Origin: Candidatus Gastranaerophilales bacterium
GTDB lineage: Bacteria > Cyanobacteriota > Vampirovibrionia > Gastranaerophilales > Gastranaerophilaceae
NCBI GenBank assembly: GCA_944323155.1
Contig: CALURL010000014.1
Coordinates: 1-41,214 of the forward strand
Length of the DNA: 41,214 nt
Direction: 5' to 3'
Of the stretch, positions 24,209-30,762 are shown in pieces. Positions within the stretch are counted from its first letter, which is position 1; each line of letters begins with the position of its first letter. Under the pieces are notes generated by a model, which made no database searches, was not told where the DNA came from, and saw only the letters and a program-made list of their open reading frames with translations. A program made the translations under genes and the position numbers.

Positions 24209-24988
24209 TTAGATAATATGCGAAAATGACAAAAAGTAATCGTTAATAACATTTATCAGCATAGGCATAATCCATACTAAAATTGCGGCTCCTAAAACAG
24301 GCTTGAATAAAAAACTAAGCTGGAAAACGTTTACCTGAGGTGCGGTCTTTGAAATTACGCCAAGAATAATATCCTGTCCCAATGTTGCAAGTAGAACAGG
24401 AGATGCAATTTGGAGCCCCATATACAAAACGTTTGAAGAAAGTTCTATTAAATAATCCATATTCACAATCTGATCCAGAGGAATACTTGTTGCCCCGAGA
24501 GGAAATATCGTAATACTTCTGATAAATGCCTGAATTAACCAGTATATCCCGCCAAGTTCAATAAATATCAAAACCCCTAAAAGAGAAAAACATTTCCCCA
24601 AAATAGAAACCTGGCTGGAAGTTGTTGGATCCAAAACCATTGCAGATGTCAAACCCATCTGCATATTAATCATATCAGCGCCAGCTTCTACGGCTATTAG
24701 AATTAACTGAGCCATATAACCTATCATTGCTCCGACAACTATATTCAAAAATATGGAAAGAGCAAATGAACTTTGTATAACATGAACATCAGGCTTTACA
24801 ATTCCTGTCAAGACAATAGTTAAAATTAATATAAAACTCAGCTTAACAAGCCCTGGAACTTCTTTTCTGTTAAATACAGGAGCAAGTCTTATAAAGCCTA
24901 AAAGACGTGAAAAAATGAAAATGCCTGCCGCAAGGTATGCATTCATCATCGGAAACATTTTCATTAATTCATTAATTATATTCTCCAA
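24209..24988 (-). CDS. fliR: Flagellar-type export apparatus protein FliR
   Basis: 259 residues with about six membrane helices. The segment AAGIFIFSRLLGFIRLAPVFNRKEVPG near the N-terminus and IASPVLLATLGQDIILGVIS near 200 are typical of FliR/SctT. It forms the inner-membrane export gate with FliP and FliQ. The start is TTG at 24988, supported by AGGAG 8 nt upstream; the next in-frame ATG is 8 codons later. It begins immediately after the stop of the preceding gene. Last gene of the export operon, facing convergent acsC. Confidence 0.9.
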   Translation of the reverse strand: MENIINELMKMFPMMNAYLAAGIFIFSRLLGFIRLAPVFNRKEVPGLVKLSFILILTIVLTGIVKPDVHVIQSSFALSIFLNIVVGAMIGYMAQLILIAVEAGADMINMQMGLTSAMVLDPTTSSQVSILGKCFSLLGVLIFIELGGIYWLIQAFIRSITIFPLGATSIPLDQIVNMDYLIELSSNVLYMGLQIASPVLLATLGQDIILGVISKTAPQVNVFQLSFLFKPVLGAAILVWIMPMLINVINDYFLSFSHII

Positions 24989-25369
24989 CTACTTTTCTCC
25001 TGCTTTTGTTGGCGGCAGCAATACATCCAAACCGTTAATCTTAAGATTTTGCGGCGGAATATCACAAACCTCTGTATTAAAACCATTTAAGTCATTAAAT
25101 ATAATTTTATCAGACTTTACATTTATACCTATTCTTCTCTCACCTTGAGAAGTTGTAATAATAATATTCGTTTTACCGTCTTTTTTAGCTTTCAAAAGAA
25201 TAGTTTCCTTTTTGTTATCAATAGTCTGTAAGGGGAAAACTTCTGCAATATTGCTATCTTCAATAACTGCAGAAGATACTGGATTATCAGAAAAAATTAT
25301 ATAATCCTGATAAGCATCAGCCTGAAGCGGTAATATAAATAATGTCAAAAATAGTAAAACTTTTTTCAT
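24989..25369 (-). CDS. Exported protein resembling a secretin/CpaC N-terminal domain, inside the fli cluster
   Basis: 126 residues with a signal peptide (KKVLLFLTLFILPLQADA, cleavage before YQDY). The mature part contains VSSAVIEDSNIAEVFPLQ followed by ETILLKAKKDGKTNIIITTS, which resembles the pilus/secretin N-terminal domain (T2SS-T3SS_pil_N, as in CpaC): a V-x-D-x-x-(I/V)-A-x-(V/A) strand followed by I-L-(L/I)-x-(A/G)-K-x-x-G-x-T. No secretin barrel follows. It abuts fliR directly and follows fliQ by 4 bp, so it is co-expressed with the export gate. No such gene is a standard member of fliOPQR operons. Assignment by motif only. Confidence 0.6.
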   Translation of the reverse strand: MKKVLLFLTLFILPLQADAYQDYIIFSDNPVSSAVIEDSNIAEVFPLQTIDNKKETILLKAKKDGKTNIIITTSQGERRIGINVKSDKIIFNDLNGFNTEVCDIPPQNLKINGLDVLLPPTKAGEK

Positions 25370-25373
25370 AATA

Positions 25374-25862
25374 TTACCTTCCTAAAATAGTATTAGTTTC
25401 TACGAAATCCGGTTTAGGCATAGGTGTTCTCGGGCTTGGGAGATATTTAATTTTCTGATTTTGGTTTATAAACGGCACCTTGCCTGGATTTTTCATTAAT
25501 TCATTAATATCAGGCTGATTTTTAAACTTATCACTCATTTCATGTTCAAAAGGAGTTGTATACTTGTAGTAGTCAGGCGAAAGGACATAAGTATCATTTT
25601 TTGAAACCGCATTAAAAGCCATAGCCATTCCGTCTGTAAAAAAGTTTTTCAAAAGATTAATATATCCCATCCCGCCGATAACAATTACGAGAAACACACC
25701 GAGAATTTTCGGTGCTGCAGCAATGGTTTGTTCCTGAACCTGAGTTACAGCCTGCAAAATACCTACAACAAGCCCTATTCCTGCCGCAACCAATACACAG
25801 GGCATTGATATTACAAGCATTAATAAAAAACCTCTTGCTAAATATTCTACTAACAGTTCCAT
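25374..25862 (-). CDS. fliQ: Export apparatus protein FliQ with long C-terminal extension
   Basis: The first about 85 residues are FliQ: two membrane helices (about 10-38 and 50-75) with the typical VGILQAVTQVQEQTIAAAPKI between them. FliQ proteins are usually close to 90 residues; this one has 162. The extra 75 or so residues are hydrophilic and Pro/Asn/Lys-rich (YYKYTTPFEHEMSDKFK, then YLPSPRTPMPKPDFVE), with no recognised domain. The frame is open throughout and the next gene starts 4 bp after its end, so the extension looks genuine. AAAGGA lies 10 nt before ATG 25862. Confidence 0.9.
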   Translation of the reverse strand: MELLVEYLARGFLLMLVISMPCVLVAAGIGLVVGILQAVTQVQEQTIAAAPKILGVFLVIVIGGMGYINLLKNFFTDGMAMAFNAVSKNDTYVLSPDYYKYTTPFEHEMSDKFKNQPDINELMKNPGKVPFINQNQKIKYLPSPRTPMPKPDFVETNTILGR

Positions 25863-25887
25863 TGTATTTATATCCTTTCAAACTTTT

Positions 25888-26529
25888 TTAATTGTAACTT
25901 GTAACAAGCCCCTGAACAATTAACGCCCAGCCGTCAACTGCAATGAATATCAACAGCTTAAATGGCAAAGAAATAATTGTCGGCGACAGCATGAACATCC
26001 CCAAAGCCAGCAATATATTTGCAACAACAAGGTCTAATACAATAAATGGTACAAATATAATAAAGCCGATTTCAAAAGATGTTTTAAGTTCGCTAATGAT
26101 AAATGCCGGAGCAACTTGCCATATCGTAATCTCGTCAGGACTTTTCGGCGGAGTTTTATGCGTCATTTCAACAAAAAACGCAAGATCACTTTCTCTTGTC
26201 TGTTTCATCATGAATTCTTTAAGCGGTTTAGAACCCTCATTAATAGCTTCAATCATATTCTGATTTTTCTGATATGGAACAGAGCCCATTTCATACATTT
26301 TCTGAAAAGTTCCTCCCATTGTGTAGAATGTCAAAATCATGGCAAGCCCGATAATTACAATTGACGGTGGCACCTGCTGAGTACCCATTGCAGTTTTCAA
26401 CATTGAAAACACTATAACAAATCTTAAAAAACTTGTCATACAGCAGAATACAAACGGAATTAGTGAAAACAAAGTCATCACTATCAGCATTTGTAAAACG
26501 GGATTCATATTATGTAAAACACTATCCAT
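25888..26529 (-). CDS. fliP: Flagellar-type export apparatus protein FliP
   Basis: 213 residues with about four membrane helices. Diagnostic phrases: TSFLRFVIVFSMLKTAMGTQQVPP (about 32-56) and AFIISELKTSFEIGFIIFVPF (about 142-162), then PFKLLIFIAVDGWALIVQGL at the C-terminus. These are core FliP/SctR motifs. The protein begins directly with its first helix and has no extra cleavable signal sequence of the enterobacterial FliP kind. It lies between fliO (13 bp) and fliQ (25 bp). Confidence 0.95.
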   Translation of the reverse strand: MDSVLHNMNPVLQMLIVMTLFSLIPFVFCCMTSFLRFVIVFSMLKTAMGTQQVPPSIVIIGLAMILTFYTMGGTFQKMYEMGSVPYQKNQNMIEAINEGSKPLKEFMMKQTRESDLAFFVEMTHKTPPKSPDEITIWQVAPAFIISELKTSFEIGFIIFVPFIVLDLVVANILLALGMFMLSPTIISLPFKLLIFIAVDGWALIVQGLVTSYN

Positions 26530-26542
26530 TTATTATCTATCC

Positions 26543-26908
26543 TTATATTCTTTTAACTATATTTTGAAAAACGGTTGTTTCTTTGTTTTTCGGGAAGTCC
26601 ACGATTGTTGGAAGTTCATCAACAGAAGATTTCAACTCTTGACGTTTGAAAGTTGCATTATCGTCAAGTTTTGAAATTAGAGAAGTTCTATCAACATCTG
26701 ATGCAACAAGAAATCTTTCTTTACCGGCACGAATTATATAAAGATTTTTACGAGGCGCAAGGCTTATTGAATCTTCTACATTAAGGAATTTAGATTTAGA
26801 ACTCATTCCAAAACCTTGTGTAGTCTGTTTATAAACAAATAAGGCAAGAAAGATTAACCCAACCATTGCGGCTGTATATACTACAAAATTTATTAAATAT
26901 CCGCTCAT
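26543..26908 (-). CDS. fliO: FliO-like flagellar biosynthesis protein
   Basis: 121 residues as called: a single N-terminal membrane helix (LINFVVYTAAMVGLIFLALFVY), then a small basic cytoplasmic domain with LNVEDSISLAPRKNLYIIRA and KERFLVASDVDRTSLISKL, the FliO pattern (LxVxxxxxLxxxxxLxLVxVGxxxxLVG). FliO helps assemble the FliP ring and is specific to flagellar systems, which argues against a non-flagellar type III system. I chose ATG 26908, which has GGAGGG 7 nt upstream, over the TTG at 26926. Confidence 0.82.
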   Translation of the reverse strand: MSGYLINFVVYTAAMVGLIFLALFVYKQTTQGFGMSSKSKFLNVEDSISLAPRKNLYIIRAGKERFLVASDVDRTSLISKLDDNATFKRQELKSSVDELPTIVDFPKNKETTVFQNIVKRI

Positions 26909-26943
26909 ATTATATCCCTCCGTCAAGTCTTAATTCTATATTG

Positions 26944-27396
26944 TTAAATATCTTCGTCTTCCAGCTCAAAATCACTGTAATCAAATTCATCTTCATCATC
27001 ACCAGCAGGATTTTGCGGCTGCTCATTAGAAATTTCATTTTCAAATGGCTGCTCTTCCTCCATAGGAGCATTTTCTTCTAAAGGAGCATTTTGCAATGGC
27101 ATTTGTTCATCTACAGGCTGTTGAGGAGCTGATGCAGCCTGCTCTTTATTTCCAGAATTTGCAATAACTTCTTCTACCTTAACCCCGTATCTGTCATTGA
27201 TAATTACAAGTTCGCCCCTTGCAATAGGTTTATCTTCAACAGTCAGAGTAACTTTGTTATCGTAGATTGATGTCAAATCTACAACCAAGCCTTCTTCTAT
27301 ATTTTTCAATTCTCCGAGTGTGATTTTAACAGAATCGAATTGAGCATCCATTTCTACTTCAATACTATCCCAGAGATTGGTATTATTTTCTGCCAT
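26944..27396 (-). CDS. Probable internally initiated FliN-like short product
   Basis: Within the FliM/FliN fusion, an in-frame ATG at 27396 (Met255, MAENNTNLWDSIEVEM) is preceded by AAGGAG (27402-27407) with a 5-nt spacer. This is a better ribosome site than that of the full-length start. It would give a 150-residue protein with only the second SpoA domain and the acidic tail, the size and content of FliN. Known SctQ/SpaO/YscQ genes produce a C-terminal isoform by exactly such internal initiation. Inferred here. Confidence 0.6.
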   Translation of the reverse strand: MAENNTNLWDSIEVEMDAQFDSVKITLGELKNIEEGLVVDLTSIYDNKVTLTVEDKPIARGELVIINDRYGVKVEEVIANSGNKEQAASAPQQPVDEQMPLQNAPLEENAPMEEEQPFENEISNEQPQNPAGDDEDEFDYSDFELEDEDI

Positions 27397-28158
27397 ATTA
27401 TCTCCTTCCTCGTTATCAACAGGTATAACAAGCCCCATATTCGGGTTTAAATTAACTTCTTTTTCATAGTCTCTAAATTTTAGAGTCAAATGTTTCGGAT
27501 CACTGTTTTCAAAAACAACAATATCGTCAACATCTAAATTTTTAAGTTCATATAGCTTAAATCTTGTTGAGCCGATTTTGAAAGCGACATCGAGTGTGCT
27601 TTTTTGAAAATCAGTGTAATTAAATTTATCATTTTTAGAAACGACTTCATCTGGCTTTAGAAGCACTTCAGGCAATGAGATAATAAATTTTGAAACAGTA
27701 TTTTCATCAATATCCTTAATAAGAAAAGTCAGATGAATAATATCAAAATTAGTACGTTTCAAAGTCGGTGGCGGCGGGGAAAGAAATTGAGCCACAGAAT
27801 TGTACATGTAATCATTAAATGAGGTAATAATTTTTGCTTCTAAATCTGTAAGCCTGTTAAGGGAGAATTTTCGTTGAGCTCTTCCTAAAACTCTATCGAG
27901 AACAATTTCAACAGCTCTTTCAGACATTCTAAAGAACATATCATGCTGTTTATCTATGCGGATTTTCGTAACAAAATACGCATCCTTATCCATTAATGTA
28001 TTGATATTTTTGCTAATGCCTGCGAGCACAAAACTAAATCCGGGTAAAAAGAATTCATCACAAGACTTTTGTACAACCGGCGGGTAGTTTTTTTCAAACC
28101 AATTGTACTGACTATACAATTTTTTGTATTCAATTGAGTTAATATTATCATTTACCAT
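26944..28158 (-). CDS. FliM/FliN-type fusion protein with two SpoA domains (SctQ-like)
   Basis: 404 residues. Residues about 75-165 resemble the FliM middle domain (VEIVLDRVLGRAQRK, LNRLTDLEAKIITSFND). A first SpoA domain lies about 190-250 (STLDVAFKIGSTRFKLYEL...). A second SpoA domain, about 258-330, is FliN-like (DSIEVEMDAQFDSVKITLGE, then GELVIINDRYGVKVEEVI). A Gln/Pro/Glu-rich and finally very acidic tail (about 335-404) follows. SctQ proteins of type III systems have this two-SpoA layout; in flagella the parts are usually separate FliM and FliN/FliY. It would form the C-ring or sorting platform. A strong internal start yields the C-terminal part alone (see the separate entry). First gene of the operon. 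Confidence 0.85.
   Translation of the reverse strand: MVNDNINSIEYKKLYSQYNWFEKNYPPVVQKSCDEFFLPGFSFVLAGISKNINTLMDKDAYFVTKIRIDKQHDMFFRMSERAVEIVLDRVLGRAQRKFSLNRLTDLEAKIITSFNDYMYNSVAQFLSPPPPTLKRTNFDIIHLTFLIKDIDENTVSKFIISLPEVLLKPDEVVSKNDKFNYTDFQKSTLDVAFKIGSTRFKLYELKNLDVDDIVVFENSDPKHLTLKFRDYEKEVNLNPNMGLVIPVDNEEGDNMAENNTNLWDSIEVEMDAQFDSVKITLGELKNIEEGLVVDLTSIYDNKVTLTVEDKPIARGELVIINDRYGVKVEEVIANSGNKEQAASAPQQPVDEQMPLQNAPLEENAPMEEEQPFENEISNEQPQNPAGDDEDEFDYSDFELEDEDI
27402..27407 (-). promoter_or_regulatory. Internal ribosome-binding site in the FliM/FliN fusion gene
   Basis: AAGGAG on the minus strand, 5 nt before the in-frame ATG at 27396. It falls exactly in the linker between the two SpoA domains. 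Confidence 0.65.
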
Positions 28159-28470: not shown

Positions 28471-30762
28471 TTATTTGTTTTTAGCTTCCAAAGCTTTTAA
28501 ACGGGCTTCGATTGCTTTGTTTTGCTTGATTATTTGTTTGTTTTGTTCTTGCAGAATTTTTACTTGGTTAGTTAACTCGGTTATCTTCGAATCAAGTTCT
28601 TTTACTGCGTTTACCAAGGCGTAAAACATGTCTTCTAAACGAATTTGTAAGAAACCATCATCACCTTTGCTTACGGCGTCCGGAAAGACTTTCTGTAAAT
28701 CCTGAGCGATTACGCCGACATGCGGAGTTTTTGCCTTGTCGTTTTTGAAAGTATAGTTAAATATCTTTAATTCACGAATTTTATCTAAGCCAGAGGTGAA
28801 TTCATGACCTACATATTTTAGACGTTTGTCTGATATCCAGCTGTTAGACAAGTAGCCTGGATTACCATTATTTGTATATGGGTCTGAGGCATTTAAGAAA
28901 CCGCCTACGTTATAGGTATCGTCAGAACCTGCTTTCTTATTTGAGACAATTGAAAGACGGGGATCTGCAATGTGCGGAGAAGCTATTGCCAAATGGCCTC
29001 GGACTAACAAAGTACCGTTTACTACTATGGCAGCACCACGACTTTTGTCATTATGGATCTCTAATGGTGCAGTAGCACTGATATTACTTACGTTATTTCG
29101 CTTTACATAGGGCTCACTACCGATATATATACGCTCCACGCTGTCGTTAGCAAGCTCACCGCTTGGGCCGGAATTAGCACCTATACATACTTTATTGCTA
29201 CCATAGACATTGGCACAGGCTTCTCGACCGATGGCGATATTATCTTGACCACGAGCCATAGCACCATCACCCATAGCAATTGAATATTGTCCTGATGCAG
29301 TTGTACCTACTGAAGTTCCTAAAGTTCCGATAGCAATGGATTGCGAACCACTAGCATTTGCCATGTAACCTATGGCTATAGCTTCTGAATTACTCGCATT
29401 AACATCTGAGCCTATTGCTATACTATACTGAGAACGAGCATAAGCATATTGGCCAACCGCGGTTGCGCGTTCGGCGGTTGCTTCTGCTACATCACCAATT
29501 GCGGTTGCGTAGGTGTTGGTGGCTCTACTTAAATTACCATAAGCTGTTGAATACTGACCACTGGCTGTGGAATTATAACCCCCAGCTGTTGCACCCTCAG
29601 CATCGGCATGAGATAAAGCACCTAAAGCCGTTGCATAACTATTAAATGCACTTGCATTGGCGCCTAAAGCCGTTGTATAACTGCCACTATGGTAATGGTT
29701 GGCATCGTCAAAATTTGTGCGGTAACCCACTGCAGTGTTATAATCCCCGCTCATGTCACGCAAACTGTCATAACCTAAGGCTGTGTTATGACTTCCAGAC
29801 GTATACAACGATGAATAAGTTCCTACGGCTGTGTTCTCTATACCAGTCGTGTTTGCTTCTAAACTTCGTTCACCGATTGCTATGTTATAATAACCACCGG
29901 TATTATTTACTAACGGATTTAAGCCTATAGCTACGTTATTATATCCATTGTCGTTACTGTACAAAGCATGGTAACCAACAGCAACATTACTATTACCAGT
30001 CTGGTTTAAGGTAAGAGCACTTTGACCTACAGCTACGTTATTGCTGCCGCTTAAATTATGATACAAACTATCGGCACCTATTCCTACATTTTCCTGGCCT
30101 GAAGTATTGGATCGCATGGAACTGTTACCAATTGCGACGTTTCGCCAACCAGTTGTATTGGATGTTAAAGATAATTCGCCAACGGCAGTATTATAATAGC
30201 CACCGGTATTACTTTTTAATGACTCAAAACCTATTGCTGTATTTTTGGTACCGTTATCACCTGTGCCCGAGCCGGTGACATTTATTAATGCACCACTACC
30301 AAAGGCGGTATTTTGAGAACCTTTTAGCTGTGATGTTGTGAGACCATAATTGCCTTTGTCATCCATGTATAACTGACCCAGAATCGTGCCGGCACCGGCA
30401 CTTGTTGCATGTTTAAACAATATATGATTTTGGCCGTCTTCTATGGTACTGATTAGTAATTTGCTTGACGGGTCGGTAGCTTCACGTTCATTCTGGCCGA
30501 TCATGGCGACCTGAGTGTCGGCTATTCCGTAATAAATGTCAGATCTGTTTCTTGCCCAGCGCCAACGCTCGGAATTATCACCGCTTTTGTTTCTCGTTGT
30601 GACTACAGGTGCAAATGCTGCCATGATTATACTCATTATGAGCATTACAACCATCATTTCTGCTAACGTAAAGCCGGATTTTTGTGCCAACTTTCCAAAT
30701 CCTCGCTCAGCAAATTTTGCAGCACCTTTTTTTAAGGCTGCTTTCCTTAATTCATAACTCAT
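28471..30762 (-). CDS. Prepilin-like protein with YadA-type head repeats and Peptidase_S74 chaperone domain
   Basis: 763 residues. The N-terminus has a 30-residue basic leader ending in Gly30, then FTLAEMMVVMLIMSIIMAAF: a type IV prepilin cleavage site with the Glu5 equivalent (Glu35). From about 150 to 320 there are about eight repeats of roughly 21 residues (pattern N-x-A-(V/I)-G-x-x-(A/S)-L-x-x-N-x-x-G). These are followed by about 14-residue YadA-head-like repeats (ATALGANASAFNS..., SIAIGSDVNAS) to about 540. SDKRLKYVG at 644 begins a Peptidase_S74 intramolecular chaperone (Ser/Lys pair kept; GVIAQDLQKVFPDAV), and a C-terminal coiled coil runs from about 720. S74 domains trimerise phage tail fibres and then cut themselves off. 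A surface fibre is inferred. GGAG precedes the ATG. Confidence 0.88.
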   Translation of the reverse strand: MSYELRKAALKKGAAKFAERGFGKLAQKSGFTLAEMMVVMLIMSIIMAAFAPVVTTRNKSGDNSERWRWARNRSDIYYGIADTQVAMIGQNEREATDPSSKLLISTIEDGQNHILFKHATSAGAGTILGQLYMDDKGNYGLTTSQLKGSQNTAFGSGALINVTGSGTGDNGTKNTAIGFESLKSNTGGYYNTAVGELSLTSNTTGWRNVAIGNSSMRSNTSGQENVGIGADSLYHNLSGSNNVAVGQSALTLNQTGNSNVAVGYHALYSNDNGYNNVAIGLNPLVNNTGGYYNIAIGERSLEANTTGIENTAVGTYSSLYTSGSHNTALGYDSLRDMSGDYNTAVGYRTNFDDANHYHSGSYTTALGANASAFNSYATALGALSHADAEGATAGGYNSTASGQYSTAYGNLSRATNTYATAIGDVAEATAERATAVGQYAYARSQYSIAIGSDVNASNSEAIAIGYMANASGSQSIAIGTLGTSVGTTASGQYSIAMGDGAMARGQDNIAIGREACANVYGSNKVCIGANSGPSGELANDSVERIYIGSEPYVKRNNVSNISATAPLEIHNDKSRGAAIVVNGTLLVRGHLAIASPHIADPRLSIVSNKKAGSDDTYNVGGFLNASDPYTNNGNPGYLSNSWISDKRLKYVGHEFTSGLDKIRELKIFNYTFKNDKAKTPHVGVIAQDLQKVFPDAVSKGDDGFLQIRLEDMFYALVNAVKELDSKITELTNQVKILQEQNKQIIKQNKAIEARLKALEAKNK

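Follow-up and report, generated by a model that had tools for sequence, protein, structure and literature searches.

The window (the whole stretch of 41,214 nucleotides that was analysed, from Candidatus Gastranaerophilales bacterium) carries a single uninterrupted ORF of 763 amino acids at positions 28471-30762 of the minus strand, which probably encodes a modular minor type IV prepilin. In this reading, to which we attribute a probability of roughly 60%, a Peptidase_S74 (S74) domain would trimerise the fibre and then cut itself, and the variable tip would be shown by the pilus as an adhesin. The reading is built on features present in the sequences themselves, all of which are metagenome-assembled data: the modules, their conservation, the machinery genes, the variable tip and the mosaic blocks.

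A preliminary description of this region had reported three modules in one frame. The architecture is as it described, the strand being minus, that of the translated ORF. Pfam matches all three modules: N_methyl (residues 27-49, E 1.4e-6, over the Pfam cut-off), YadA_head (E 8.8e-13, the top copy at residues 456-480) and Peptidase_S74 (residues 644-697, E 1.4e-15). The NCBIfam prepilin domain TIGR02532 also scores over its cut-off. Residues 30-40 read GFTLAEMMVVM and residues 643-650 ISDKRLKY, which places Gly30 and the Ser644/Lys649 pair exactly where they had been reported. A class III signal is present, with Gly30 before Phe31 (the predicted cut), Glu35 at mature position +5 and a hydrophobic helix.

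All features given here by window position lie on the minus strand. The predicted prepilin leader (residues 1-30, 30673-30762), defined from the N_methyl match and the leader sequence, has no poly-G tract in the window copy. It is followed by the mature N-terminal pilin helix (residues 31-57, 30592-30672; modelled at residues 33-49), in which Glu +5 and Pro +22 are fully or almost fully conserved across the family. After this helix no known pilin domain was matched by Pfam in the ORF. Next come a neck or collar (residues 58-145, 30328-30591) with the family-specific residues W67 and G89, and a YadA-like head (residues 146-560, 29083-30327) in which the xxNTAIG type of repeat occurs some 22 times between residues ~147 and 521. 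Residues 601-643 (28834-28962) are hypervariable and would form the distal end if S74 cuts. They precede the core of the S74 intramolecular chaperone (residues 644-697, 28672-28833). Beyond S74, both sequence and model include a C-terminal helix or coiled coil (residues 709-763, 28474-28638), with 80% of heptad a/d positions hydrophobic, which is predicted to drive trimerisation. Pfam found no match to the YadA C-terminal membrane anchor family in the ORF or its close relatives. Downstream of the gene, on the same strand, are flagellar export and switch genes of the FliR, FliP, FliO and FliM/N types (24209-28158); in a close relative (L017), the S74 end of the gene adjoins fliM and fliP, as in the window.

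Mean identity to relatives is 0.74 at residues 41-60, about 0.4-0.5 in the neck and 0.2-0.5 in the head. It is 0.06-0.07 in residues 601-640 and 0.64-0.86 in S74, the hypervariable segment (601-643) thus being flanked on both sides by conserved parts. The AlphaFold2 monomer has a pLDDT of 90-98 in the head, with a high-confidence beta-roll at residues ~290-550, and low confidence for the neck (including residues 58-110) and for S74, where the model is uninformative. Using Foldseek, the modelled head matches that of BpaC (E 4e-8), and both Foldseek and sequence profiles match it to the heads of BpaC, BoaA and YadA. For the S74 profile, the top PDB match is the MyRF ICA domain (7dc3, 1.5e-10), with phage fibre S74 domains next. 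Over residues 110-732 the protein aligns colinearly, at 31% identity, with a Pelagibacter-phage tail fibre, which suggests, as the simplest origin, that a phage-type fibre was joined to a pilin helix.

An assembly misjoin of two genes is ruled out by the paralogues and by the same fusion in relatives. The window corresponds to contig C14 in a genome of 1.79 Mb (99.7% complete), which contains exactly four S74 domains, every one in the prepilin-S74 architecture; the copy on contig C26 ends at the contig edge, just past the cleavage site and inside the pilin helix. The preliminary description had held that absence of the fusion from related genomes would count against it. The fusion is, in these assemblies, found on many independent contigs of related MAGs and recurs across the Gastranaerophilales. 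Of 59 relatives, 38 have related proteins and 29 have S74 domains. In the first survey, a prepilin motif starts nearly every S74 ORF with a complete 5' end, and in the sole apparent exception (L020) the prepilin start sits in the adjacent ORF. A prepilin start is absent from one S74 protein of family f4 (L163) and from one in a more distantly related bacterium of the same phylum (L169). Using Pfam, S74 was identified in all 31 close relatives (N_methyl in 26) and in all 18 divergent relatives (N_methyl in 16). The Ser and Lys of the SDxxxK motif are invariant across all 87 distinct S74 domains compared; Ser644, Asp645, Arg647 and Lys649 are invariant among close relatives, and Glu +5, like the S..K pair, is conserved.

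For processing, trimerisation, cleavage, location at the tip and adhesion we infer the following route. The N-terminal helix would insert the protein in the inner membrane and the single PilD-type peptidase of the genome would cut after Gly30. In the periplasm, the C-terminal coiled coil and S74 would bring three chains together and fold them into a trimeric YadA-like fibre. Cleavage before Ser644 by the Ser644/Lys649 dyad would follow, and a chaperone of ~14 kDa would depart. The MyRF ICA has to be trimeric to be cut and its dyad, Ser587/Lys592, has been tested (PMC8326128), while the S74-type MAT fibres of Bdellovibrio end in SDxxxK and one self-cleaves at S782 (PMC10769870). It had been suggested earlier that the fibre may then be released. 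Since the S74 cut falls just before the Ser, it is the C-terminal 120-residue chaperone that would leave, the fibre remaining joined to the pilin helix. The stable trimer would consist of three pilin helices, one fibre and a hypervariable free tip; the cut would leave residues 601-643 free at the end, the site of the binding parts in phage and MAT fibres. The type IV pilus machine may take up this trimer, most probably as the pilus tip in the manner of CofB and TcpB, for display as an adhesin, and the tip repertoire may be diversified by paralogous copies swapping segments. CofB and TcpB are trimeric minor pilins located at the pilus tip (PMC9565799, PMC10191384) and provide a precedent for combining a trimer with pilin packing, which the preliminary description had considered unclear.

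The host genome includes one A24 (PilD-type) prepilin peptidase with its N-terminal domain, a PilC-PilB-secretin cluster and two PilT-family ATPases over the curated cut-off. PilB, PilC and the secretin score below their equivalog cut-offs, and PilM, PilN/O and a major pilin were not identified in this genome; the machine could therefore be partial or T2SS-like. Ca. Gastranaerophilus termiticola has been reported to have pilA, B, C, D and T (PMC5877343). The 1.79-Mb genome also has a very large pilin-like repertoire, with 84 N_methyl matches, many of which share the helix FTLAEVL(I/V)TLGIIGV.

The four S74 paralogues have long exact DNA blocks in common, in differing pairs. The window copy shares 132 nt of the head with the C10 paralogue (29677-29808), a region that has diverged in the other two paralogues, and 113 nt at the C-terminus, in the helix after S74, with the C26 paralogue (28501-28613); C10 and C12 share 197 nt of the neck and head. 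Such blocks in different pairings suggest segmental gene conversion among the four genes. The sharing of different blocks by different pairs is stronger evidence for mosaic structure than our codon-shuffle test, which ignores uneven conservation along the gene.

The number and arrangement of S74 genes vary. Four copies are dispersed in the window's genome and up to 12 in other genomes, and many genera have one. Eight sampled genomes (7 genera, 3 families) have exactly three S74 genes, and in every one of them the three form a cluster within 5 kb. Tandem S74-pilin triplets occur in two other families, with a fourth, non-S74 pilin next in most sampled genomes (for example, at L151, L152, L159 and L160, of families f6 and f7, the triplet is followed by a fourth pilin with no S74), an arrangement that resembles minor-pilin operons. 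Coordinates of tandem triplets are L151 7515-12319, L152 7683-13602, L156 6267-9621 and L160 4725-9651; further examples are L157 8469-15129 and L158 4709-8888. In an S74 tree, whose resolution of orthology does not reach across families, the three triplet positions are orthologous within f6 and within genus g8, which makes a specialised three-gene set, perhaps a minor-pilin tip complex, plausible.

Several other explanations must be weighed against a pilus-borne tip. It is unlikely, though several observations point this way, that the protein is a trimeric fibre anchored in the inner membrane or periplasm, whose prepilin helix is processed by PilD but acts as a mere anchor and never enters a pilus; such a fibre would span the periplasm or cross the outer membrane in another way. 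Only a short neck, modelled with low confidence, separates the helix from the fibre and there is no recognised globular pilin module, which counts against a pilus subunit; the failure to find PilM argues in the same direction, and so does the number of N_methyl matches, which is high if each is to be an ordinary pilus subunit. However, the conserved Glu +5 and Pro +22 are tied to pilin assembly and not to mere anchoring, and the genome has pilus motor genes, including PilT. Different S74 pilins might also co-trimerise in a heterotrimeric tip complex derived ancestrally from a three-gene operon. The clustering of three-gene sets and the orthology of their position classes would fit this, but the dispersed copies in the window's genome and the single copy in many genera would not, and the S74 trimers studied so far are, to our knowledge, homotrimers; we therefore regard it as rather improbable.

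A tail fibre of prophage or phage origin, carried on a mobile element and forming no part of the cell surface, would account for the colinearity of the protein body with phage tail fibres. The evidence makes this very hard to sustain: the gene is not among phage structural genes, its neighbours being the flagellar fliM-fliO-fliP-fliR genes and a HemN/HemW-type gene, the fusion is spread through the order, and no phage with a pilin N-terminus was found. We give even less credence to S74 cleaving other proteins as a peptidase, the role that PMC8179133 suggested for pilin+S74. The family is indeed annotated as a peptidase, but the S74/ICA domains that have been studied cut themselves after trimerising (PMC8326128, PMC10769870) and S74 is located here after a trimeric-type fibre and before a coiled coil.

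The earlier proposal of a pilin-like subunit or anchored trimeric fibre is supported in part, as the modules are in one frame, are kept in relatives and occur in a genome that has pilus genes. Apart from release of the fibre, what does not survive is its description as a new class of surface fibre. The proposal had also made no mention of the variable tip, of mosaicism among the paralogues, of triplets or of poly-G leaders. The bare pilin+S74 architecture is already known: in PMC8179133, IPR012902-IPR030392, the same two-module combination of N_methyl and S74 as in the ORF, ranks within the 15 most common architectures of modular pilins and is read as a possible peptidase. It is only listed there, with no trimeric head, variable tip, triplets or repertoire described in the text consulted. 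Trimeric tip minor pilins and bacterial S74 fibres are likewise known, separately. CofB and TcpB of type IVb pili are minor pilins with a C-terminal homotrimer at the pilus tip (PMC9565799, PMC10191384) but have no S74 and no YadA head, and their fold is different. The Bdellovibrio MAT fibres are chromosomal, trimeric and multigene, with diverse tips, and 13 end in an SDxxxK S74 domain, one of them self-cleaving; however, they start with a signal peptide and a ~130-residue beta domain (PMC10769870), and the prepilin N-terminus in place of the signal peptide rules out membership of the MAT superfamily. The YadA-family adhesins (BpaC, BoaA, YadA) have the same head repeats and fold but are held in the membrane by their C-terminus, whereas in the ORF it is the N-terminus that is membrane-bound; the lack of a Pfam match to the YadA anchor excludes a YadA autotransporter. 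MyRF, which gives the S74 profile its top hit in the PDB, is a membrane protein and cleaves itself in the trimeric state, although it is a eukaryotic transcription factor.

The modular minor prepilin reading brings trimeric tip pilins together with S74-assisted fibres, both of them established principles, and would give a common yet unexplained architecture a concrete meaning: a type IV pilus with a phage-style trimeric fibre. In a partial literature search, no paper was found that names Peptidase_S74 and prepilin together. The trimeric-fibre reading, the constant ends with a variable tip, the mosaic blocks, the S74-pilin triplets and the poly-G leaders were not found in the literature searched and appear to be new.

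These leaders are tracts of G10-G12 (or C10) between the start codon and the prepilin cleavage site of pilin genes. A detailed census covered contigs C1-C4, where 30 of 39 G9+ tracts precede an N_methyl match by at most 300 bp (random expectation: a mean of 0.69 and at most 5 in 10,000) and 30 of 35 pilins have a tract. When 33 tract-bearing pilin starts of the host genome were examined, 29 were out of frame, nearly all with 10 G, and four were in frame, all with 11 G. Tracts are present in 13 of 74 S74 pilins, including two of the four host copies: C10 (G11) is open from the ATG and C12 (G10) is not. In genome G028, a single G again separates the two members of an S74 pair, but there the G10 member is on and the G11 member off. 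Many genera of family f1 have frequent G9 runs, which are rare in the other families; in a small sample from four other genera, 10 of 14 tracts are linked to pilins (0.3 expected), mostly in one genus. Examples of poly-G leaders are L075, L080 and L073, together with loci L074-L103 and L173-L202 of the host genome (G000). In genome G051, all 43 G9 matches fall on the same strand, and they probably stem from a single long poly-G run that is an artefact.

The natural reading of a tract in this position, with frame differences of one G, is phase variation. We tentatively propose, at somewhat less than even odds, a phase-variable, recombining pilin repertoire in the Gastranaerophilaceae, in which one-G switching across dozens of pilin genes, some of them S74 pilins, would change trimeric tips and pilins. 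That most copies are off tempers this reading, and homopolymer errors in the assemblies or transcriptional slippage at the tracts are possible explanations of the pattern. No paper on phase variation in Gastranaerophilales was found in the partial search. If the leaders truly are switches, it would mean that a large, pilus-centred set of contingency genes exists in these gut bacteria, which are uncultured and related to cyanobacteria. The host repertoire also includes two large pilins of ~600-630 residues, at L121 3162-5054 (C4) and L119 11642-13438 (C23), whose starts are near-identical (FTLSEVIIVMLIIAVVAGVC); the one at L121 contains repeats rich in Cys and has a poly-G tract in its leader.
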